From Acidobacteriota bacterium (GTDB lineage Bacteria; Acidobacteriota; Terriglobia; Versatilivoradales; Versatilivoraceae): a DNA stretch of 64,000 nt. Numbering within the stretch: position 1 is the stretch's first letter; every line of letters starts with the position of its first letter. Location: NCBI GenBank assembly GCA_022826755.1, contig JAJDUG010000005.1, positions 62,001 through 126,000 of the forward strand, written 5' to 3'. The notes under the pieces were generated by a model that saw nothing but the letters and a program-made list of their open reading frames with translations, made no database searches and had not been told where the DNA came from. The translations under genes and the position numbers were made by a program. Positions 688 through 10,216 of the stretch are shown in pieces.

Positions 688-2388
688 TCAGGTCGAGGCG
701 CTTTGGAGAAGTTCGGCGGCATGCTTGAGGACATTGTCGGTCACCCGCTCCCCGCTGATCATGCGGGCGATTTCGCGAATGCGGCTCTCCCGGTCCAGCC
801 GGTCGACCCGGGTCACCGTGCGGTCGTTCTCCACCCTTTTCCGGATATGAAAATGGTTGTCGGCATAGGAGGCGATCTGCGGAAGGTGAGTCACGCACAA
901 CACCTGGTTGGCCCTGGAAAGAACCTTGAGTTTCCGCCCCACCACGTCGGCTGCCCGTCCACCGATGCCGCTATCGACTTCGTCGAAGATCAGCGTTTTC
1001 CCCTCGTCATCGATGGAACGAATGGTTTTCAAGGCCAACATGATCCTCGAGACCTCCCCGCCGGAAGCGATCTTGGCCAAGGGCTTCAGGTCTTCACCCG
1101 GATTGGGGCTGATCAGGAAGTCGATCACGTCGGTCCCGTTCGCGCTGCCGGACACCCCGTGTCCGGACGAAGCCTGTCCACCACTGCCGGGAGCGGAAGA
1201 GAAGGCCACCCGGAACCGGGTTTTTTCCATGGCCAGTTGGCCCAACTCTCCACCCATGGAGCACTCGAGTCTCTCGGCGGCCGTTTTTCGCTGGAGGCTG
1301 AGTGACCCTGCCCGACTCAGATAGTCGCTCTCCAGAACCTGCAACTCCTTCTCGATCGACTCGACCCTGCGGTCGGCTTCCTGCAGTTCCTCCAGTTCTC
1401 CTTCGATCCGCCGGCCATGGGCCATGACCGCCTCAACCGATTCCCCGTACTTTCGCTTGAGACGGTCGATTTCGACCAGCCGCCCCTCGATCCGATCCAG
1501 CCGTGACGGATTCACCTCGACCCCGGAGGCATATTCCCTCAATGCCAGCGAGACGTCCTCGATGCTGATGCAGGCCGATTGAAACTGGTCCTGAAGGCCC
1601 CGGCAGCGGGGGTCCAGAGATCCCAACTCCTCCAGCAGCCGGCCGGTCTGCCTGAGCCGGGCTCCAATCGAATCTTCCGATTCGTAGAGGCGGACATGGG
1701 CCTGGTGAGCGGCCTGGAAAAGACGGTCCGCGTTGGAGAGCAGGCGGCGCTCCTCCAGGAGTTGAGATTCCTCATCGGGGGAGGACAAGCCCGCCTTGCG
1801 GATCTCATCGACTTGAAAGGAAAGCAGATCGATAGCCCGCAGCCTCTCCTGCTCGCTCAATTTCAAGCGCCGAACCTGCTCCCACGCTCCCTCCAGCCTG
1901 CTGTAGAGCCCTTCGACTTCAGCCAGGGTGACCTGATGGCCGCCGTAGAGGTCGAGCCACCGCAACTGGGAATCGCGACTGAAGAGCGACTGTTGGTCGC
2001 TCTGCCCGTGAATGTCGACGCAATGTGTCCCCAGCTTCCTCAGGAAGGCAACCGGCACCATCTGGTTGTTGACGAAAGCCCGTCCCCTGCCATCCGGAAC
2101 GACTTCTCTCCGGACGATCACGCCCTCCGAATCGAACTCCAGCCCGCTCGCCTCCAGCGGGCCGCGCAACCGCTCCACTCCCTCGAAGCAGGCCGAAACC
2201 GTGGCTTTGCCGGACCCGGTGCGAACCATTTCGGACCGCGCCTTGGCGCCCGCCAGCAACCCCAAGGCATCGACGATGATCGACTTTCCTGAACCTGTTT
2301 CACCCGTCAACAGATTCAATCCCTCCCGGAACTGCAGGGAAAGGTGATCGATCAGGGCGAAATCGCGTATTTCCAGGAACTTCAGCAT
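688..2388 (-). CDS. recN: DNA repair protein RecN
   Basis: RecN is an SMC-like ATPase that acts at DNA double-strand breaks during recombinational repair. The 566-residue product is close to the usual 550-560. It has a Walker A motif GETGSGKS at residues 29-36, a long coiled-coil middle rich in Leu, Glu and Arg, an ABC-type signature IASGGEVSRIMLALK, and a Walker B/D-loop LIFDEVDSGIGG followed by VTHLPQIASYAD near the C-terminus. The frame stays open upstream of the ATG at 2388, but the extension is unlike RecN, and MLKFLEIRDFALI is the canonical start. It is divergent from tolQ. Its stop codon is nearly abutted by a composite repeat element at 592-684. Confidence 0.96.
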   Translation of the reverse strand: MLKFLEIRDFALIDHLSLQFREGLNLLTGETGSGKSIIVDALGLLAGAKARSEMVRTGSGKATVSACFEGVERLRGPLEASGLEFDSEGVIVRREVVPDGRGRAFVNNQMVPVAFLRKLGTHCVDIHGQSDQQSLFSRDSQLRWLDLYGGHQVTLAEVEGLYSRLEGAWEQVRRLKLSEQERLRAIDLLSFQVDEIRKAGLSSPDEESQLLEERRLLSNADRLFQAAHQAHVRLYESEDSIGARLRQTGRLLEELGSLDPRCRGLQDQFQSACISIEDVSLALREYASGVEVNPSRLDRIEGRLVEIDRLKRKYGESVEAVMAHGRRIEGELEELQEADRRVESIEKELQVLESDYLSRAGSLSLQRKTAAERLECSMGGELGQLAMEKTRFRVAFSSAPGSGGQASSGHGVSGSANGTDVIDFLISPNPGEDLKPLAKIASGGEVSRIMLALKTIRSIDDEGKTLIFDEVDSGIGGRAADVVGRKLKVLSRANQVLCVTHLPQIASYADNHFHIRKRVENDRTVTRVDRLDRESRIREIARMISGERVTDNVLKHAAELLQSAST

Positions 2389-2758
2389 GGCGCGGACGGG
2401 AGTCGGCGTGAAATCGTGGAATCTGCTCCAGGAAGAGGGGTGAGTGTACCATAGAAGAAGGTTGAAGTTTGAAGGGGGAAGGGGGAAGGCGGGGGTGCCT
2501 CTTGGGAGCGCGGGCGGCCCGGCCGCCCCCCGGCCGAGGCTGGTTGAAATACTGGTCGCGACCTGGTGAGAAATCCAGGCTCGGCGGGGACCGAGCCGGT
2601 TGTTCGGGCGCCGGTTGACGACCCCGAGAAGTCTATGGTAACTTCCGGCACAACACGGTTGTGACGGGGTTCGTTCTGGCAGTCCAGGAAAACGCTGGGG
2701 GACCTGTTTGACCATAGATCCGGGCGGTCTGCTCCCTGTGCTTGCGCAGGGAGCCGAG
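2389..2758. other. Divergent intergenic region recN / tolQ
   Basis: This 370 bp gap between the divergent recN and tolQ genes shows no plausible gene. The part near recN includes a purine-rich stretch around 2455-2490. Promoters for both directions are expected here, but I see no clean -35/-10 pair that I would defend. Confidence 0.5.
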
Positions 2759-3433
2759 ATGGACTTGTTGAAGTTGATCCTTCAGTCGGGTCCCCTGGCC
2801 AAGGGCGTCCTGCTGGTTCTTGTATTCTTCTCGATTTTTTCCTGGGCAATCACCTTCAAGAAATACTTCTATCTCAAAAAGCTGCGCGCCGATTCGGAAG
2901 CTTTCCTGCGTATCTTTCGAAAGAGCAAACGCTTTTCGGAAATCAGCTCGGCTTGCGAAACCCTGAGGCACACTCCCCTGGTCGAGGTCTTTCTGGCCGG
3001 CTACGAGGAACTGGAAGCCCAGTTGATGAGCCAACCCGCCGGTAACCGCCCCGCCCCGTCTCCGACGCTCAAGACCATCAACGTCATTCAGCGGGCGCTC
3101 TCCCGAGCCTCCTCGGTTCAACTGACCAAGCTGGAGCGCAATATGAGCTGGTTGGCCACCACGGCCTCGGTGGCCCCCTTTATCGGGTTGTTCGGTACGG
3201 TCCTCGGAGTCATCGACGCCTTCGCCGGGCTGGGGATGGAGGGGGCGGCCACCATCCGCGCCGTAGCCCCCGGAATATCGGAGGCACTCATCGCCACCGC
3301 GGCCGGTCTTTTTGCAGCCATTCCAGCGGTGATCGCCTACAACTACTTTGTCCACCACCTCAAGGAGTTCGGCTCGGCCATGGACGACTTCTCCCTGGAG
3401 TTCCTGAACCTGATGGAGCGGACCTTCCTGTAA
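2759..3433 (+). CDS. tolQ: Tol-Pal system proton channel subunit TolQ (MotA/TolQ/ExbB family)
   Basis: TolQ is the inner-membrane channel subunit that, with TolR, uses the proton motive force to drive TolA during outer-membrane constriction. The 224-residue product has an N-terminal membrane segment (about residues 15-33, GVLLVLVFFSIFSWAITF), a cytoplasmic loop, and two further hydrophobic segments near residues 125-150 (TTASVAPFIGLFGTVLGVI) and 165-190 (ALIATAAGLFAAIPAVIAYN). This is the family layout. I chose ATG 2759 because AGGGAG lies just upstream and the protein then starts as homologues do; a TTG at 2708 would add 17 residues. ExbB is the alternative name, but tolB, pal and cpoB follow, so TolQ is the better call. 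Confidence 0.93.
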   Translation: MDLLKLILQSGPLAKGVLLVLVFFSIFSWAITFKKYFYLKKLRADSEAFLRIFRKSKRFSEISSACETLRHTPLVEVFLAGYEELEAQLMSQPAGNRPAPSPTLKTINVIQRALSRASSVQLTKLERNMSWLATTASVAPFIGLFGTVLGVIDAFAGLGMEGAATIRAVAPGISEALIATAAGLFAAIPAVIAYNYFVHHLKEFGSAMDDFSLEFLNLMERTFL

Positions 3434-3505
3434 TCCGGGCGGCCGGGCATTCGGCAAGCCCGGACCCAAGGCCGGGCGTCCAAGTATGGTTCAAGAGGTG
3501 AACCG

Positions 3506-3916
3506 ATGGCATTCACCAACCCGCAGGGCAGAACCCAGACGTCGCTTTCGGAAATCAACGTGGTTCCCCTGGTCGACGTGGTGCTGGTCCTGCTCATCAT
3601 CTTCATGCTGACCGCACCCATCATTCAATCCGGAATCGAGGTCAGTGTCCCCAAGACCAGGACGGTCAGCGAGTTGACCAAGGAATTGCTGGTGGTCAGC
3701 ATCAACCGGGATCAGCGGCTCTTCGTGGGCTCCGATCCCATCAACATCAACGATCTGGAAGCCCGCCTCCAGGCCAGGATCAAGGACCCCGAAACCGCCA
3801 TGATCTACTTGCGCGCCGACGAGGAAGTGCCCTTCGGGACCATCGCCCGAGTCATGGACCGGGCCAGGCTTGCAGGCGTGAAGAATATCAACGTGGTCAC
3901 CCAGCCGGAACAGTAG
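3506..3916 (+). CDS. tolR: Tol-Pal system stator TolR (ExbD/TolR family)
   Basis: The 136-residue protein has the ExbD/TolR pattern: a short cytoplasmic N-terminus ending in SEINVVPLVDVVLVLLIIFM (about residues 16-35), in which the membrane-embedded Asp of PLVDV is the proton-coupling residue. A periplasmic domain follows, ending in a region with IYLRADEEVPFG and MDRARLAGV, which are typical of the family. It works with TolQ to energise TolA. AGAGGTG lies upstream of the ATG. It is 72 bp downstream of tolQ and clearly in the same operon. Confidence 0.94.
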   Translation: MAFTNPQGRTQTSLSEINVVPLVDVVLVLLIIFMLTAPIIQSGIEVSVPKTRTVSELTKELLVVSINRDQRLFVGSDPININDLEARLQARIKDPETAMIYLRADEEVPFGTIARVMDRARLAGVKNINVVTQPEQ

Positions 3917-3984
3917 CCAGGACGCTTCCGGCTCCGCCGGCCGGCGTGGGCCGAACTCCTGCTCCCGCCCTGTCCTGAAAATCG

Positions 3985-4788
3985 ATGCCGGTCCAGCGAC
4001 ACTCCATTTTTGAAATTCAGAAGGAAAAGCTGGGGGGATTCCTCTACCTGTCGGTCGTCAGCCACCTGCTGGTGGGCGTGACCTTCTTCCTCCTGCCCTC
4101 CTACCTCAACCCGAGCGCCGACCCCTGGGGAGACAGCCAGGGAGGCGGCGGCTCCATATCGGTTGGCCTGGTGCAGGGATCAACCATTCGGGGACTGAAC
4201 CTGCCCCGTCCCAATCAGACCACCGACAGCAATGTCGCCACCGAGTCCACGGGTTTGGGTCAGACCGAAGAGGCCAAGGCGGCGGAAACCAAGCCGGAAA
4301 TCCCCGACCCCAAGGCCTTCGAGGTCAAGAAGAAGCGCAGGGTCCGCAAGCGGCCGCGCGCCCGGCGACAGGCTCCCAAACAGGTTGCGCAGGTCCCTCC
4401 TTCCAACAGAGTGCCCTTTGGCGAGGGGGGTGCTCCCGATCTCTCCTACTCCCAGTTCCAAACCGGCATGGGGACCGGCGGCATCGGGTTGGGGGACGGT
4501 TTTTTCGGCAAGAAGTATGGCTGGTACGTGAGACAGATTCGCGACATCGTCAGCAGCAACTGGCAGAAAAACCTCGTCAGCCCCAACGTGCGCACGGCGA
4601 AGCGGGTGGTGGTTCAATTCACCATCCGCCGGAACGGTTCCATAGCCCGGGAAACGGTCAAGCAATCCAGCGGGGTCCCGTCGCTGGACCGTTCCGGCCT
4701 CAGGGCCATCAAGGCTTCCCGATTCCCTCCCCTGCCCGGAGGAGAGACCCGGTTGGTGGCTGAATTCTGGTTCGAGCACTCCAGGTAA
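3985..4788 (+). CDS. tolA: TolA/TonB-type energy transducer
   Basis: The 267-residue protein has one N-terminal membrane anchor (about residues 17-39), a Gly/Ser-rich then charged, Pro- and Lys/Arg-rich linker (KKKRRVRKRPRARR near 112-125), and a C-terminal TonB-like domain (about 180-267) with VVVQFTIRRNGSIARE and LDRSGLRAIKASRFPPLP. This organisation spans the periplasm and passes force from TolQR to Pal/TolB. Its place between tolR and tolB makes TolA the role, although the C-terminal domain reads as a TonB-family domain rather than E. coli TolA. The start follows the tolR stop by 68 bp and no strong ribosome-binding site is seen. Confidence 0.85.
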   Translation: MPVQRHSIFEIQKEKLGGFLYLSVVSHLLVGVTFFLLPSYLNPSADPWGDSQGGGGSISVGLVQGSTIRGLNLPRPNQTTDSNVATESTGLGQTEEAKAAETKPEIPDPKAFEVKKKRRVRKRPRARRQAPKQVAQVPPSNRVPFGEGGAPDLSYSQFQTGMGTGGIGLGDGFFGKKYGWYVRQIRDIVSSNWQKNLVSPNVRTAKRVVVQFTIRRNGSIARETVKQSSGVPSLDRSGLRAIKASRFPPLPGGETRLVAEFWFEHSR

Positions 4789-4814
4789 ACCCAGGTACAG
4801 ACAACGGGAGACCC

Positions 4815-6152
4815 ATGACCAAATTTCTTGCCCCTGCCTGCCTGTTGTCGATGACGTTCCTCGGTGGCCCATTGCCGGCCTCCGCCCAGGAAACCGACAG
4901 CCAGGTCCGAGTCGTGGTGACCGAGGGAGTCAGGGCCCGCGTGGCCGTGGCCGATATTCAACAACGAGGTTCCGATCCGGAACTGGACCGGCACACCCGG
5001 CTCTTCGACGACGTCCTGTGGAACGACCTGCGGCGGGCGGGCGTGTTCGAGCTGGTGCCCAAGACCTTCTACCCCCTGCAACTCCCCTCGCAGCCCTACG
5101 AGGTCAACTACGAGGAGTGGACCGCCGAAGACGTGAAGGCTCAAAACCTGGTCTATGGCAATTCCTACATGCAGCGCGGCCAGTTTGTGGTCGAGGCCCG
5201 TTTGATCGATGTCAACACCCGGGAGTCCATCATCGGGAACCGCTACCGGGTCGATCCGGATGAGGAGGGCGTCCGATCGCTGGCACACCGTCTGGCCGAC
5301 GAAATCGTGCTCCGCATCGGCGGCGGCGTTCGGGGGGTCGCTTCCACCCGGATCGCCTTCGTCTCGGACCGCAACGGCCACAAGGAAATCTTCACCATGG
5401 ACTACGACGGCTACGGACAGAAGGCGCTCACCAACCACCGGTCCATCAGCCTGACCCCGCGCTGGTCGCTGGACAACTCACGCATCGCCTACACTTCCTA
5501 CCACCGAGGCAACCCCGACCTGTATTTTCGTACCGTCTACGATCAACGACTCATCCCCTTCTCCCATCGGGGCGGCTTGACCACCACGCCGGCCTTTGCT
5601 CCCGACGGGGAAAGGATCGCCTTCAGCTCCAGCAAGAGCCGTGACCCCGAAATCTACGTTTCCGATCTCCGAGGCCGCGATCTCAGGCGGCTGACCCGGG
5701 CTCGCGGCGTGGACATCTCGCCAGTGTGGAACCCCAAGTCGGGCAGGCAAATCGCCTTCGTCTCCGGTCGAAGCGGTTCCCCCCAGATCTGGATCATGGA
5801 TGAGGACGGCTCCAACCTGCGCCGGCTGATCAACGAAGGCGGAGAAGCCGTGAGTCCCTCCTGGAGTCCGGACGGCGTTCACCTGGCGTTCTCCTGGAGG
5901 CGGCGGCTGACGGGACGATTCGACATCTACCTGCTGGACGTGGTCAGCGGCCGGTTCACCCAGCTCACTCGAGACGGCAACAACAACGAGCATCCGGTCT
6001 GGTCGCCCGACAGCCGCCACATCGCCTACGAGTCCAACCGTTTCGGAAGCCGCCAGGTCTTCATCATGCTGGCCGACGGCACTCAGAAGGAGCAACTGAC
6101 CCGCCAGGGCCGGAACACCTCTCCCGCCTGGTCCAATTACTTTCAGCAGTGA
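4815..6152 (+). CDS. tolB: Tol-Pal periplasmic protein TolB
   Basis: The 445-residue protein has a signal peptide (ALLSMTFLGG-like core ending ASAQ, about residues 1-25). The TolB N-terminal domain contains AVADIQQRG and LFDDVLWNDLRRAGVFELV. It is followed by six beta-propeller blades from about residue 170, each with the pattern (R/H)IAF-S-R----IY--D--G---LT. TolB docks on Pal and the outer membrane in the Tol-Pal system. GGGAG precedes the ATG and the gene starts 26 bp after tolA, in the conserved order. Confidence 0.96.
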   Translation: MTKFLAPACLLSMTFLGGPLPASAQETDSQVRVVVTEGVRARVAVADIQQRGSDPELDRHTRLFDDVLWNDLRRAGVFELVPKTFYPLQLPSQPYEVNYEEWTAEDVKAQNLVYGNSYMQRGQFVVEARLIDVNTRESIIGNRYRVDPDEEGVRSLAHRLADEIVLRIGGGVRGVASTRIAFVSDRNGHKEIFTMDYDGYGQKALTNHRSISLTPRWSLDNSRIAYTSYHRGNPDLYFRTVYDQRLIPFSHRGGLTTTPAFAPDGERIAFSSSKSRDPEIYVSDLRGRDLRRLTRARGVDISPVWNPKSGRQIAFVSGRSGSPQIWIMDEDGSNLRRLINEGGEAVSPSWSPDGVHLAFSWRRRLTGRFDIYLLDVVSGRFTQLTRDGNNNEHPVWSPDSRHIAYESNRFGSRQVFIMLADGTQKEQLTRQGRNTSPAWSNYFQQ

Positions 6153-6157
6153 TTTTT

Positions 6158-6187
6158 TTGTTTTACACTGGATTTATTTTTTATAGA
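6158..6187 (+). promoter_or_regulatory. Possible sigma70-type promoter for pal
   Basis: The tolB-pal gap is AT-rich, unlike its surroundings. TTGTTT (6158-6163) and TATAGA (6182-6187) are 18 bp apart, and transcription would start about 65 bp before pal. The match is only moderate; the T-runs may equally be part of a weak terminator after tolB. Confidence 0.35.
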
Positions 6188-6258
6188 CTAGTGGCCGCTA
6201 TCAAACTTTCAGGATACGTTACGCTTCCACACCCATATTCGAACGGAGGAAGGACATT

Positions 6259-7014
6259 ATGAAAAACAGGAAGTTCTTGAACGTGGCTGCCCTGTGCCTG
6301 TTCGCGCTCCTCATCGCAATCTCGGGCGGCTGTAAGAAGAAGGTGCCGGTCGCGCCGCCGGAAGAGCCTCCGCCGCCTGCACCGCCTCCCAAGCCCACGG
6401 CGACCCTCTCGGCCAGCCCGACGACCATCCAGAAGGGAAAGTCCTCGACCCTGACTTGGAGCACCACCAACGCCACCAACGTCTCCATCAACCAGGGAAT
6501 CGGCGACGTGAGCACCAGCGGGTCGCGCTCGGTGTCTCCCAGTTCATCCACCACCTATACGCTGACCGCCAAGGGCGAGGGCGGATCGATTACCGCGAGC
6601 GCCCGGGTGACGGTCACGGCGCCGCCTGCACCGCCTCCCAAGCCGAAGAAGAGAGAACCGACGATTGAGGAGATGTTCACCAAGAAGGTCAAGGACATCT
6701 ATTTCGACTACGACAAGTCGGAGATCCGGGACGACGCCCGCGCCACCCTGGCGGCGGCCTCCGAGTTCCTCAAGAAATACCCGCAAGTCAGCTTCACCAT
6801 TGAAGGCCATTGCGACGAGCGGGGCAGCGGGGAGTACAACCTGGGTCTGGGCGACCGCAGGGCCAACTCCGCCCTCAGCCATCTCACCTCCATGGGAATC
6901 TCCAGTTCTCGAGTCAAGACCATCAGCTACGGCAAGGAGAGGCCCCAGTGCACGGAGTCCAATGAGTCCTGCTGGCAGAAGAACCGCCGGGCCCATTTCG
7001 TGCTGAGTCGCTGA
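6259..7014 (+). CDS. pal: Peptidoglycan-associated lipoprotein Pal with Ig-like insert
   Basis: Pal is an outer-membrane lipoprotein that binds peptidoglycan and is the target of TolA/TolB. The 251-residue product has a lipoprotein signal with lipidated Cys25 (AISGGC). A Pro-rich linker is followed by an Ig-like beta domain at about 45-115 (TLTWSTTNATNV, TYTLTAKG), another Pro-rich linker, and an OmpA-like domain from about 140 (DIYFDYDKSEIRDDA, IEGHCDERGSGEYN, LGDRRA). The OmpA part holds the residues that bind diaminopimelate. The Ig-like insert makes it about 80 residues longer than E. coli Pal. The ATG is preceded by GGAGGAAGG. It follows tolB and precedes cpoB. Confidence 0.95.
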   Translation: MKNRKFLNVAALCLFALLIAISGGCKKKVPVAPPEEPPPPAPPPKPTATLSASPTTIQKGKSSTLTWSTTNATNVSINQGIGDVSTSGSRSVSPSSSTTYTLTAKGEGGSITASARVTVTAPPAPPPKPKKREPTIEEMFTKKVKDIYFDYDKSEIRDDARATLAAASEFLKKYPQVSFTIEGHCDERGSGEYNLGLGDRRANSALSHLTSMGISSSRVKTISYGKERPQCTESNESCWQKNRRAHFVLSR

Positions 7015-7351
7015 CGCAAGCAAGCAGTTCCCGCGGCGCGGCCGCCCCCTGTGATCCTGCAGCGGGCGGCCCGCCGCATTAGATTTGTTCTCCCTCCAGC
7101 CGTTGATTCCCGCCATATGCCGGGTGGTTCTCCCTTCAAGCAGTCCCTCGAGCCGATGCTTCCATGGCGTGATGCCGGGTCGGTTCCGGCCTCTTCTCTT
7201 TTGCGGGGTATCCAATCGGCAGGTCCAACCCGTTTCCCGGATGGTTTCCCGACGCTTCCGCGGCTCAACCCGAGCTTGCCCTGTCGATTGGCCTGCTGCT
7301 ATGATTCACCCAACGACACCTTATGGACCCCCAGATATCGAGGTGACCAAA
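7015..7351 (+). other. Intergenic region pal / cpoB
   Basis: This stretch is GC-rich just after pal (about 7030-7080, several GGCGGCC/GGCCGCC runs that could fold into a terminator) and unremarkable after that. The cpoB frame stays open through it but shows no family similarity before the signal peptide, so I leave it untranslated. Confidence 0.4.
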
Positions 7352-8182
7352 TTGCTAAGACACACCCTGTTGCCCAGCCTAGGGATTCTATTGATGGCGG
7401 TGCTTCCGGCCTCGGCGCAGAAAAGGGAAATCATCCGGCTGCAAGCCGACGTTTCCATCCTGCAGCAGCAACTGCGGGAGCTGCAGAAGGGCTTCGACTC
7501 CGACATCGCCGTCCTGAAAGACCTGGTCGAGAAGCTCTTCGACCAGTCGGGCAGGATGCAGGTCGTCCTTGAAGGGATGAAAACCAATAACCAGCAGACG
7601 GAAACGGCCGTAGGGTCCAAGATCGATTCGCTGGAGACCCAGTTTTCGGTGGTCAACACCGGAATCGACATGGTGATGGAAAGAATCAACAAACTCTCCA
7701 TGCAGATGGCCGAGACCAAGTCCCAGGTCGTCGAGTCCCTGGACAATCCACGGCGCCCGAGTGGTGCTCCGTCTCCGGAGGCACTCTACAATTCCGCCTA
7801 CGGCGACTACCTCAAGGGCAGCTATGACCTGGCCCGCGAAGGTTTTCAGGAATACGTCAACAACTATCCGCAAACCGAACTCTCGGACAACGCTCTCTAC
7901 TGGATCGGCGAAACCTACTACGGGGTCCGGAACTTCACCGAGGCCGTGAATGCCTTTGACCGGGTGATACAGATCTATCCCAAGGGCGACAAGGTCTCGG
8001 CGGCGATATTGAAGAAGGGGTTCAGCTACCTGGAGCTCGAAAACCAGCAGGCCGGGGTCAAGGAGCTCCGCTGGGTCATCCAGAAACATCCTTCCTCCGA
8101 AGAGGCCAAGATCGCCAGGAATCGTCTGAAAATCCTGGGCGTATCGGCCCGCGCCTCTCGGCGGAAGGCATCGCGCCGCTGA
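7352..8182 (+). CDS. cpoB: CpoB/YbgF-type TPR protein of the Tol-Pal system
   Basis: CpoB links peptidoglycan synthesis with outer-membrane constriction. From TTG 7352 the protein is 276 residues: a signal peptide (LLPSLGILLMAVLPASAQ), a coiled coil at about 25-120 (heptads such as IIRLQADVSILQQQLRELQ), and a C-terminal TPR domain from about 150 (YNSAYGDYLKGSYDLAREGF, ALYWIGETYYGVRNFTEAV). The frame is open from 7085. I prefer TTG 7352 because GAGGTGA ends 5 bp before it and it gives a compact signal peptide; ATG 7301 and GTG 7343 are alternatives. It is the last gene of the tol-pal cluster, as in other bacteria. Confidence 0.87.
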   Translation: MLRHTLLPSLGILLMAVLPASAQKREIIRLQADVSILQQQLRELQKGFDSDIAVLKDLVEKLFDQSGRMQVVLEGMKTNNQQTETAVGSKIDSLETQFSVVNTGIDMVMERINKLSMQMAETKSQVVESLDNPRRPSGAPSPEALYNSAYGDYLKGSYDLAREGFQEYVNNYPQTELSDNALYWIGETYYGVRNFTEAVNAFDRVIQIYPKGDKVSAAILKKGFSYLELENQQAGVKELRWVIQKHPSSEEAKIARNRLKILGVSARASRRKASRR

Positions 8183-8233: not shown

Positions 8234-8656
8234 ATGGCAGGCTCAGTCAACAAGGTGATTCTGGTGGGCAGGCTGGGGCAGGACCCCGAAGTCAGATTCA
8301 CCCAGGGAGGCACGGCGGTCGCAAACGTTCGCATCGCAACCGACGAGACCTGGAAGGACCAGAGCGGCGAACGGCAGCAGCGAACCGAGTGGCACACGGT
8401 CGTCCTCTGGCGCAGGCTGGCGGAAATCTGCGGCCAGTATCTCAGCAAGGGAAGGCTGGTCTACATCGAGGGGCGCCTGCAGACCCGGAGCTGGGAGGAT
8501 CGCGAAGGAAACAAACGCTACACCACGGAAGTCCGGGCCGACAACATGGTCATGCTGGGCGGCCGATCCGAGGAAGGACAGGCTGCGCCGGCAGCCCAAC
8601 CCGCCGCCGCGGCCGTTTCGGATTCCGGGACATCCGACGACGACATCCCATTCTAG
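8234..8656 (+). CDS. ssb: Single-stranded DNA-binding protein
   Basis: The 140-residue protein has the SSB OB-fold ([19 protein letters not shown] at residues 5-23, [32 protein letters not shown]) and a disordered Ala/Pro/Gln linker. The acidic tip DDDIPF at the C-terminus recruits replication and repair partners. A strong ribosome-binding site, AAGGAGG, precedes the ATG. It is followed after 13 bp by a kinase-like gene. Confidence 0.97.
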
Positions 8657-8669
8657 CCCGCCCTTTACC

Positions 8670-9614
8670 GTGCTCATCGGCAAGCAGATCGGCCCTTACC
8701 GAATTCTCTCCAGAGACCGGCTGGCGGACACCCGGCACTTTTACAAGGCGACCCATATCGAGCGGCGGGAGACCGCCGCACTGCTGTTTCTGACACGGCC
8801 GCCGCGGCAGGAAGACCCTGCCGAATCCCAGTTCCTGCAGAAGCTGGCCCTCTACGCCACCCTGGACCATTCCAACCTGGCGCGGCTCTTCCCCATTGAG
8901 ACTCACGACGAACATCACATCCTTCCCATGGAATTCATACATGGGAAGACGCTGGCCGAGATAATTGCCGGGGGGCCTTGCGACTTCGACCTGGCCCTTC
9001 AGACAGCCATTCAAACCGTCCGCGCACTGCTGGAGGTGCACGAGAACGGCCTCGTTCACGGGCGCCTCACCTCACGCAGCCTGTTCCTGCAGGAAGACAA
9101 CCAGGTCAAGCTGCTCGATATCGTCCTGCCTTATCTGCCACCCGGCCTGGTTCTGCAGGATCCGGAGGACCCGGAGTCGCGGGAACCGGACCTTCCGGCG
9201 GGTCAGCCGCCCCTGCTGCACCTCAGCTACCGGGCACCGGAGCAGGTGCGGGGGGAGCCCGGAGATGCCAGGAGCGACCTGTTCTCCCTGGGGGCCGCGC
9301 TCTACGAATTATCGCTGGGGGAGTTTCTCTTTACGGGTGGAGACGGGGCCGCACTGGACCGGCAGATTCAGGACCGGGAGCTTCCCCGGCTGATTTCCGT
9401 GCGGCCCCAAACCTCTCCGGGCTGGAGCCGCCTCCTGGGAGCACTCCTGCAAAAGGATCCGGCCGACCGATACCCTTCCGCCTACGAGCTGTTGAGTGAC
9501 CTGGAGAAGCTCAACTACGGATTCAGCCTGGACAAACTGGCATTCCGCCCGGCCAATCCCAGGCTCACCCGCCGCGGATTCTTCAGGAGCTTCACCGGAG
9601 AACTCGAGGAATGA
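8670..9614 (+). CDS. Protein kinase-like protein, probable pseudokinase
   Basis: The 314-residue protein (GTG start, 13 bp after ssb) follows the Hanks-type kinase fold: IGPYRIL at residues 7-13, FIHGKTL at 89-95, then YRAPEQVRG and ARSDLFSLGAALYEL in the C-lobe. The catalytic residues are missing. The VAIK lysine position reads AALLFL (36-41), the HRD motif reads HGR (130-132), the metal-binding Asn is Ser137, and DFG reads DIV (150-152). It should therefore not phosphorylate in the usual way, though it could bind ligand or act as a scaffold. No membrane segment is obvious; the C-terminus is basic and ends with GELEE. The tight spacing suggests co-transcription with ssb. Confidence 0.8.
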   Translation: MLIGKQIGPYRILSRDRLADTRHFYKATHIERRETAALLFLTRPPRQEDPAESQFLQKLALYATLDHSNLARLFPIETHDEHHILPMEFIHGKTLAEIIAGGPCDFDLALQTAIQTVRALLEVHENGLVHGRLTSRSLFLQEDNQVKLLDIVLPYLPPGLVLQDPEDPESREPDLPAGQPPLLHLSYRAPEQVRGEPGDARSDLFSLGAALYELSLGEFLFTGGDGAALDRQIQDRELPRLISVRPQTSPGWSRLLGALLQKDPADRYPSAYELLSDLEKLNYGFSLDKLAFRPANPRLTRRGFFRSFTGELEE

Positions 9615-9619
9615 TCCCG

Positions 9620-9714
9620 CCGGGCCACCGCCCTGCCAGGCGGATCATTCGAGGGAAAATGACCGATTATTTGATAAAGACGAACCACGAATGGACACGA
9701 ATGAACACGAATAG
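9620..9714 (-). repeat. Composite gene-end repeat element, copy 2
   Basis: It begins 5 bp after the kinase-like gene's stop codon. Read away from the gene, it has a GC-rich block with GGCGGATCATTCGAGGG, an AT-rich spacer, AAAGACGAACCACGAATGG, and then ACACGAATGAACACGAATAG. It matches the reverse complement of the elements at 592-684 and 30807-30902, including the placement beside a stop codon. Confidence 0.8.
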
Positions 9715-9925: not shown

Positions 9926-10216
9926 CTATGCGATTTCATCAATCAGTTTATTGGTGTTCATTCGTGTCCATTGGTGGTTTGTCGTTTTCCTTTGTGAATA
10001 ACTCTTATCGGTCCTTCGTGGTTGTCGTTGGTGGATAACCCCCTCAACTGGGTTCAGACAAGCCGGGCCCCACCCCCACGACGGGGCGGATCATTCGAGG
10101 GTGAAACCGGGGACGTTGATGGCGTATCGGGGGCAGCGACAGGTTCCGATTCCCTCACCGTCTTTCTTCGTGTGTCTTCGTGGTCCTTCGTGTGTCTTCG
10201 TGGATAGCTCTTTTTT
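9926..10216. repeat. TTCGTG repeat region after transketolase
   Basis: This region holds many TTCGTG/TTGGTG units (9950-10035 and 10165-10205) and a partial inverted copy of the composite element's GC-rich block at 10064-10111 (CCCCACGACGGGGCGGATC). The region overlaps the 3' end of the transketolase frame. No separate gene is supported. Confidence 0.7.

Follow-up and report, generated by a model that had tools for sequence, protein, structure and literature searches.

A family of pseudokinases encoded downstream of ssb in Candidatus Versatilivoradales (Acidobacteriota)

Introduction

Few bacterial pseudokinases have, to our knowledge, a known job. In the sections of a 2025 review drawn on here (PMC12599244), bacterial pseudokinases are defined by the loss of the beta3 Lys, the HRD Asp and/or the DFG Asp, and several groups are described. 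MviN, of the ActPs3 group, is among the best studied. It is a membrane protein with degenerate motifs in a bacterial kinase fold; its C-terminal tail, phosphorylated by PknB and read by FhaA, matters for its recruiting role, and the protein acts together with an active kinase and an FHA-containing partner, mixing scaffolding with phosphosignalling. The features given for ActPs3 are an activation-loop deletion and, often, a C-terminal membrane segment. In the ActPs2 group the beta3 Lys is changed to Arg and the HRD Asp to Asn. The GLW pseudokinases carry Leu in place of the beta3 Lys, the triplet GLW in place of HRD, and a C-terminal membrane segment. CP1 and DLHK have no membrane segment and show variable catalytic losses, CP1 being fused to a COG3899 ATPase domain and DLHK keeping the HRD Asp. 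Finally, YukC/EssB, a membrane protein of type VII secretion, uses a non-catalytic kinase fold as a scaffold.

The string 'Acidobacteri' is absent from the main text of the same review (PMC12599244). Among the papers listed by a literature search, which took in no preprints and few subscription papers, none had a title or an abstract beginning that linked a pseudokinase to ssb, Tol-Pal or Acidobacteria in the sense meant here. Here we describe a gene in a 64,000-nucleotide stretch of DNA (the window) from an Acidobacteriota bacterium (contig JAJDUG010000005.1), which a first-pass annotation had read as a degenerate kinase directly behind ssb, with a possible role as a nucleotide sensor or as a scaffold in the DNA damage response.

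Results

A kinase fold without its catalytic residues

The features of the locus are collected in Table 1. The Pfam Pkinase match in the gene product covers residues 25–274 (E 6.5e-20). A phmmer alignment with staphylococcal Stk1/PknB (9ymt, 4eqm) sets the motif positions, pairing 'aall' with VAIK, 'vhgrltsrsl' with 'vhrdikpqni' and 'lldiv' with 'ifdfg'. The comparison set comprised 37 kinases from outside the orthologue group, 11 of the order and 26 of other families in the class, and all of them carry the canonical residues K39, E58, D132, K134, N137, F151 and G152; the window protein has L39, K58, R132, T134, S137, I151 and V152. The alignment agrees with the first-pass annotation that the VAIK Lys, the HRD Asp, the metal Asn and the DFG Phe and Gly have been lost, and adds to that list the alphaC Glu, the catalytic-loop Lys and the glycines of the Gly loop (positions 19, 20 and 22, which are mostly Gly in other kinases); the DFG Asp is kept. 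Five of the six residues in the K/E/D/K/N/D catalytic set of an active PknB-type kinase are thus lost. H130, the DFG Asp D150, the APE motif (189–191), D203, G208 and R267 are retained, and P190, D203, G208 and R267, likewise H130 and E191, are invariant in all 12 orthologues. According to the part of PMC4718504 used here, the change from HRD to HG plus a basic residue has been reached convergently by many pseudokinases.

Table 1. Features of the locus, in window coordinates.
Feature	Position	Strand	Basis or remark
recN	688-2715	-	5.95 kb from the pseudokinase gene
tolQ/exbB, tolR/exbD, tonB/tolA, tolB, pal and cpoB-like genes upstream of ssb	2708..8182	+	Pfam ExbD, TonB, TolB_N/PD40, OmpA, TPR/YfiO; boundaries are mechanical ORF ends; tolQ putative, named from its position
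ssb, C-terminal tip DDDIPF	8234..8656	+	Pfam SSB, E 5.2e-42
Gap from ssb stop to pseudokinase start, 13 bp	8657..8669	+	No Shine-Dalgarno-like motif
Pseudokinase gene, GTG start, 314 aa	8670..9614	+	Pfam Pkinase; orthologues in 12/12 genomes of the order; AlphaFold2 two-lobed kinase fold
Degenerate Gly loop, residues 19-25, ADTRHFY	8724..8744	+	Positions 19, 20 and 22 are A, D and R
beta3 VAIK Lys replaced by Leu39	8784..8786	+	L in 7/7 genus members, K in 5/5 orthologues of other genera
alphaC Glu replaced by Lys58	8841..8843	+	Among 12 orthologues, K 11 times and R once; all 37 other kinases have E
Catalytic loop HGRLTSRS in place of HRDxKPxN	9057..9080	+	HRD Asp absent 12/12; T134-S135 invariant 12/12
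DFG position reading DIV, Asp kept (150-152)	9117..9125	+	Alignments
C-terminal tail, residues 284-314, RRGFFRSF-GE motif	9519..9611	+	Conservation; modelled helix 301-309, low to middling confidence

AlphaFold2, run on an 11-sequence alignment, gave a two-lobed kinase fold (pLDDT 77.5, pTM 0.73; the five models ranged in pLDDT from 42 to 77.5), with values below 50 at residues 151–155, 167–174, 296–299 and 310–314. The solved structures that best matched this model in Foldseek were Stk1, PknA and PknB (best E 8.5e-17). No membrane segment was found in any of the 12 orthologues, whose maximum KD19 values lie between 1.23 (the window protein) and 1.76, with no strongly hydrophobic 19-residue stretch. 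The kinase fold, together with L39 and R132, places the protein within the general definition of a pseudokinase, and the HRD Asp is missing from 12/12 orthologues. The product of the gene was confirmed as a real pseudokinase, with a kinase fold probably derived from a PknB-type Ser/Thr kinase.

The protein matched 32 PADLOC models, for which cut-offs are not provided, the best among the 25 listed being PD-T4-6 (E 2.5e-36). A defence role was set aside, as the models look kinase-type, the gene occupies one locus in all 12 genomes and its catalytic residues are lost; the matches probably express general kinase homology.

Orthologues and distribution

An orthologue is present in each of the 12 examined genomes of Ca. 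Versatilivoradales (Terriglobia, Acidobacteriota); most of the genomes compared are fragmented MAGs. Identity to the window protein is 86–92% in the six other genomes of its genus and 45–57% in five genomes of three other genera (G007 to G011). One member of the order is carried as Candidatus Versatilivorator vitaminiformans (NCBI: Candidatus Versatilivoradales, Terriglobia, Acidobacteriota). The sequence record holding the G007 orthologue (L049, VFZK01000108.1) is titled Acidimicrobiia, though the genome is placed in this acidobacterial order.

A profile of the 12 orthologues scored its own members at 515–580 bits and the next kinase at 209 bits across 399 genomes of the class, the 12 included. 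When 396 genomes drawn from the phylum were searched, none of the 395 beyond the window's own passed E 1e-65; the other 11 members of the order, whose copies score far beyond this threshold when the order itself is searched, are without a match there because they were not part of the draw. The best five candidates per genome were scored in both the class and the phylum searches. A wider scan of contigs returned 11 loci, ten of them from genomes of the order and one a deltaproteobacterial kinase with 24% identity. In the tree of the 12 orthologues and the 37 other kinases, the 12 group together (support 100/100), and the stem leading to them has a length of 2.0. G008 is the sister of the window's genus (support 100/97); the tree resolves this pairing, and not the branching order of the three main branches. 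The pseudokinase is probably vertically inherited and, in the searches made, limited to Ca. Versatilivoradales, a view held as part of the joint explanation given in the Discussion.

Stepwise loss across the order

The catalytic losses differ in depth between the genera. No orthologue has Asp at position 132 of the HRD motif: members of the window's genus show R, Q or H there, G008 has N, and the remaining four genomes have R. Position 134, the catalytic-loop Lys, is T in 12/12. The beta3 Lys is L in all seven genus members and K in the five others. At the position of the metal Asn, S is found throughout the genus and also in G009, whereas the other four genomes have N. The DFG motif appears as D(I/A/V)V in genus members, as NFV in G008, as EFG in G007 and unchanged in G009, G010 and G011, so that its Asp is kept in 10/12 orthologues and is N or E in two. 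Outside the genus, then, the beta3 Lys is kept in 5/5 genomes, the metal Asn in 4/5 and an intact DFG in 3/5, and glycines 19 and 22 of the Gly loop persist in G007, G009, G010 and G011. Replacement of the beta3 Lys and loss of most of the Gly loop are confined to the window's genus, and the loss of the DFG Gly is common to the genus and its sister G008.

The simplest account would put the losses of the catalytic base, the alphaC Glu and the catalytic-loop Lys on the stem of the clade, and that of the DFG Gly on the branch shared by the genus with G008; the beta3 Lys, the DFG Phe and the remaining Gly-loop glycines would have gone within the genus, and the metal Asn on two separate occasions.

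Comparison with described kinase and pseudokinase families

The protein shares fold and sequence ancestry with the Hanks kinases of the PknB/PrkC/Stk1 type, and its best NCBIfam match is NF033483, at 103 bits against a cut-off of 450; NCBIfam returned only kinase matches, all far below the curated cut-offs. It differs from these kinases in that the catalytic base, the loop Lys and the alphaC Glu are absent from 12/12 orthologues, and in having no membrane segment and no domain beyond a 31-residue tail.

Set against the descriptions in the sections of PMC12599244 used here, the protein resembles MviN in its degenerate motifs, but lacks both ActPs3 features: a stretch of 36 residues separates its DFG and APE positions, and it has no membrane segment. 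Moreover, no FHA match was found in its genus. The Leu at the beta3 position is shared by the GLW pseudokinases and the window's genus, whereas the HRD position reads HG(R/Q/H) in the genus and HGR, HGQ, HGH, HEN or HER across the order. The two ActPs2 substitutions do not describe the family either, with Leu or Lys at position 39 and Asn132 in 1/12. The lack of a membrane segment and the variable catalytic losses are in common with CP1 and DLHK. However, the 314-aa protein consists of a kinase domain and the 31-residue tail, matches only kinase families in Pfam and has no fused ATPase domain as in CP1, and the HRD Asp that DLHK keeps is absent from 12/12. The scaffold use of a non-catalytic kinase fold in YukC/EssB offers a parallel, though no type VII secretion genes were recognised beside the pseudokinase gene. 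As far as the searches show, the orthologues would thus represent a new family of bacterial pseudokinases, set apart from ActPs2, ActPs3, GLW, CP1 and DLHK by the published descriptions of those groups.

Constraint and the C-terminal tail

The pseudokinase ORF is open and full-length in 7/7 genomes of the genus. The dN/dS ratio (Nei–Gojobori, all 21 genus pairs) has a median of 0.154 and a range of 0.112–0.201; medians for neighbouring genes are 0.153 for tkt (10 pairs), 0.110 for ssb (21), 0.100 for tolB (6), 0.129 for cpoB (15) and 0.131 for xth (10), and mean dS in the comparison is 0.26–0.40. The pseudokinase was thus shown to be under purifying selection in the window's genus. The full-length ORFs and the dN/dS of about 0.15 rule out local decay. 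The first-pass annotation had named close orthologues with intact catalytic residues as the sign of such decay; none was found, and the loss was seen to be conserved when the orthologues were aligned, the HRD Asp being absent from 12/12.

Within the genus no other stretch is as well conserved as the C-terminal tail (97%). When the genus is compared with the other genera, the tail stands at 55%, against 58% for aG–aI, 70% for APE–aF and a lowest value of 24% for residues 142–186. R301, R302, F304, R306, F308 and G310 of the tail are invariant in 12/12. Positions K58, T134, S135, P180, P181, W252, P269, F304, R306, F308 and G310 are family-specific, that is, present in 11 or 12 of the 12 orthologues and in no more than 15% of the other kinase rows; as those rows were cut at the profile-match envelope, the absence of the tail from other kinases carries little weight. 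A possible likeness of the tail to Tat signals was dropped, the tail being C-terminal.

Gene neighbourhood

The spacing of 13 bp between ssb and the pseudokinase gene, and a distance to recN of about 6 kb, had both been reported correctly for the window. The cpoB and ssb genes lie upstream of the pseudokinase gene on the same strand in 12/12 genomes, a pairing with ssb common to all the examined genomes of the order; the 13-bp spacing is not general. Of the seven genus genomes, five have a 13-bp junction and one an 18-bp junction, and in the last the stop and start codons overlap by 1 base; outside the genus, the gap is 207 bp in G008 and 637–1017 bp in the other four genomes, and the tight junction is therefore found only in the window's genus. 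A Shine-Dalgarno-like motif is absent from the 20 bases before the start in 11/12 orthologues (G007 has one about 12 bases ahead of its start), which supports coupling to ssb weakly, since 4/10 window genes, the pseudokinase gene included, are without such a motif too. Expression of the pseudokinase is probably tied to ssb in the genus, with the short or overlapping junction as the better support.

In G007, G009, G010 and G011, which represent two genera, a small and a larger CxxC gene lie between ssb and the pseudokinase gene (L039 17176-17877, L040 10939-11573, L038 7840-8510 and L042 1320-1783). The CxxC proteins look Zn-ribbon-like, and the larger has a hydrophobic segment in G009, the one genome checked. 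No Pfam match at 0.01 was obtained for the three proteins examined (both of G010 and the large one of G009), and the larger gene looks broken in G011 (L042).

The run tolQ-tolR-tonB/tolA-tolB-pal-cpoB-ssb is complete in the window, G001, G002, G003 and G008, with a divergent recN beside it (the contig of G002 ends within recN and holds only its start). In G007 and G010 the stretch examined contains tonB/tolA, tolB, pal and cpoB and gave no match to tolQ or tolR. Up to the contig or stretch end, pal and cpoB are visible in G004 and G006, and cpoB in G005, G009 and G011. The downstream genes vary between genera, the upstream genes much less. The tkt gene follows in the window, G001, G002, G005, G006 and G008, and not in G004; in G003 the contig ends. 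G007 has a RecQ helicase gene on the opposite strand downstream, and G009 and G011 each have a radical SAM gene. In G010 the pseudokinase gene is followed on its own strand by two genes, one for an FHA/Zn-ribbon protein and one for an intact Ser/Thr kinase (L040 7204-9242).

Four copies of the 27-base CACGAATGGACACGAATGAACACGAAT were noted in the window, at 426-452, 591-617, 9686-9712 and 9950-9976. They have 0–3 mismatches and occur in both orientations, two of them between the pseudokinase gene and tkt; none was seen in 100 shuffles. ARAGORN called a tmRNA (marked with an asterisk) at 5973-6550 on the minus strand, antisense to tolB/pal, which is probably a false call.

As a control, one region was taken from each of 20 genomes out of 47 ssb-bearing genomes of other Terriglobia families. 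The cpoB gene lies upstream of ssb in 15/20 of these regions, most of them with tol-pal genes. A kinase gene downstream of ssb was found in 0/20 within the stretch examined (which in L072 reaches only ~230 bp past ssb), and one region (G012, L081) has a large general kinase upstream of ssb. A class-wide pairing of ssb with a kinase was thereby ruled out. Two genomes of another family (L064, L066) have recN beside tolQ and no pseudokinase gene.

The phospho-Ser/Thr toolkit of the window's genus

The pseudokinase is the sole PF00069 match in 5/7 genomes of the genus (G001, a single contig; G002; G003, where the one gene is matched as two pieces; G004; and G006). One further match was found in each of G000 and G005. 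In G000, which is the window's own genome, the extra kinase has a match to PDC-M71A, a candidate defence protein (E 1.2e-107), and looks accessory, being located near a PDC-M71B and a PDC-S35 gene; this region (L043 4976-9120, contig C9 of G000) resembles a defence island, in which the PDC-S35 protein has TIR-effector matches. The extra match of G005 is partial, with HRD and DFG intact, on a 5-kb contig.

FHA matches were found in none of the seven genus genomes and none in G008, and number 4–8 in each of G007, G009, G010 and G011. PP2C_2 matches were found in 0/7 genus genomes and in 3/5 other genomes of the order; this is a weak marker, as G007 and G011, which have several kinases, were also unmatched. 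A group of intact kinases from G007, G008, G010 and G011 forms a clade (100/97) with no counterpart found in the genus among the kinases sampled. Kinase-poor genomes occur elsewhere in the class, with, for example, one or two matches to the pseudokinase in G047, G021, G019 and G040. Judged by the PF00069, FHA and PP2C_2 families, the window's genus seems to have dropped most Hanks-type phosphorylation.

Discussion

The locus is best explained, with a probability that we put at about 0.6, by an order-limited and vertically inherited pseudokinase, derived from a PknB-type kinase, that would work as a soluble, non-catalytic protein-binding module. As the catalytic machinery has been lost and the protein nevertheless kept intact, it probably binds a partner rather than acting as an enzyme. 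In the window's genus, the residues lost suggest that binding would be independent of ATP; as the other genera keep nucleotide-binding residues, ATP binding may be part of the ancestral role. Contacts with the partner would likely be made through the C-lobe and the basic-aromatic tail (RRxFFRxF-GE), although the conservation of the tail across genera (0.55) does not exceed that of aG–aI (0.58) and falls short of that of APE–aF (0.70). The partner may be SSB, a Tol-Pal or divisome protein, or some other protein; gene position points first to SSB and the Tol-Pal proteins as candidates, and cannot choose between them, ssb being the last gene of the cluster. The genus pseudokinase is hardly a regulator of a Hanks kinase or a dock for an FHA protein, since no conserved ones were found there.

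A scaffold that docks on SSB or on replisome or repair proteins, and serves replication or the DNA damage response, is the foremost of the alternatives, though a rather unlikely one. The order ssb then pseudokinase in 12/12 genomes and the junction of 13–18 bp or an overlap in the genus would fit it, and the basic-aromatic tail could suit the acidic tip of SSB. However, the tight junction belongs to one genus only, with gaps of 207–1017 bp elsewhere and two CxxC genes in between in four genomes, and any gene joining the 3' end of the cluster lands beside ssb, because ssb ends it. The link to DNA damage proposed in the first-pass annotation proved weak: the tol-pal-cpoB-ssb cluster also occurs in other families of the class, recN and ssb are found together in genomes without the pseudokinase gene, and recN, which adjoins tolQ in L064 and L066 in the same situation, was ruled out as a sign of such a role.

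The same neighbourhood would also fit an envelope scaffold serving the Tol-Pal or division machinery, by analogy with MviN, which serves peptidoglycan synthesis. The cpoB and ssb genes precede the pseudokinase gene in 12/12 genomes, with more tol-pal genes where the contigs reach, and it is the downstream genes (tkt, RecQ, radical SAM, FHA and kinase) that differ between genera, the upstream ones much less. We consider this unlikely, as the pseudokinase has no membrane segment, the MviN–FhaA mechanism is not simply transferable to a genus with no FHA match, and the tol-pal-ssb cluster exists in other families without the pseudokinase gene.

The earlier suggestion of a nucleotide sensor, which would bind ATP or another nucleotide without catalysis and switch a partner, fits only the genera other than the window's. 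There, G010 and G011 keep the beta3 Lys, the metal Asn and DFG, G009 the Lys and DFG, and G007 and G008 the Lys and the Asn, and glycines 19 and 22 are kept in G007, G009, G010 and G011. In the window's genus, 7/7 genomes have lost those glycines, the beta3 Lys, the metal Asn and the DFG Phe and Gly, with dN/dS still at ~0.15; a sensor is an improbable role for the window protein.

It is very improbable that the fold carries out some other transfer, as in SelO or SidJ. In favour of it, H130 and T134-S135 never vary and 10/12 orthologues still have the DFG Asp; but this Asp is N or E in 2/12, the genus has lost the beta3 Lys, the Gly loop and the metal Asn, and SelO and SidJ themselves retain both the Lys of beta3 and the Asp of DFG, as described in the sections of PMC12599244 used here. 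That the gene is decaying and functionless in the window's genus, as the greater number of catalytic losses there might suggest, is scarcely credible for a gene that is full-length in 7/7 genomes with dN/dS of 0.11–0.20, as in functional neighbours.

For the protein-binding module that we favour, the orthologue series is of interest in itself, running from members that have lost only the catalytic residues to members in which almost nothing of the ATP site is left. Tentatively, and at somewhat less than even odds, the window's genus may have dismantled its toolkit of Hanks kinases, FHA and PP2C_2 proteins and kept, under strong constraint, one structural homologue that was by then already without catalysis, independent of ATP and of a kinase network, with living intermediates in the other genera. 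With no conserved partner kinase or FHA reader found in the genus, the series is well suited to asking cleanly whether binding alone can preserve a bacterial kinase fold. If the reading is true, the conserved job of this bacterial kinase homologue would be purely structural, independent of ATP and of any kinase network.
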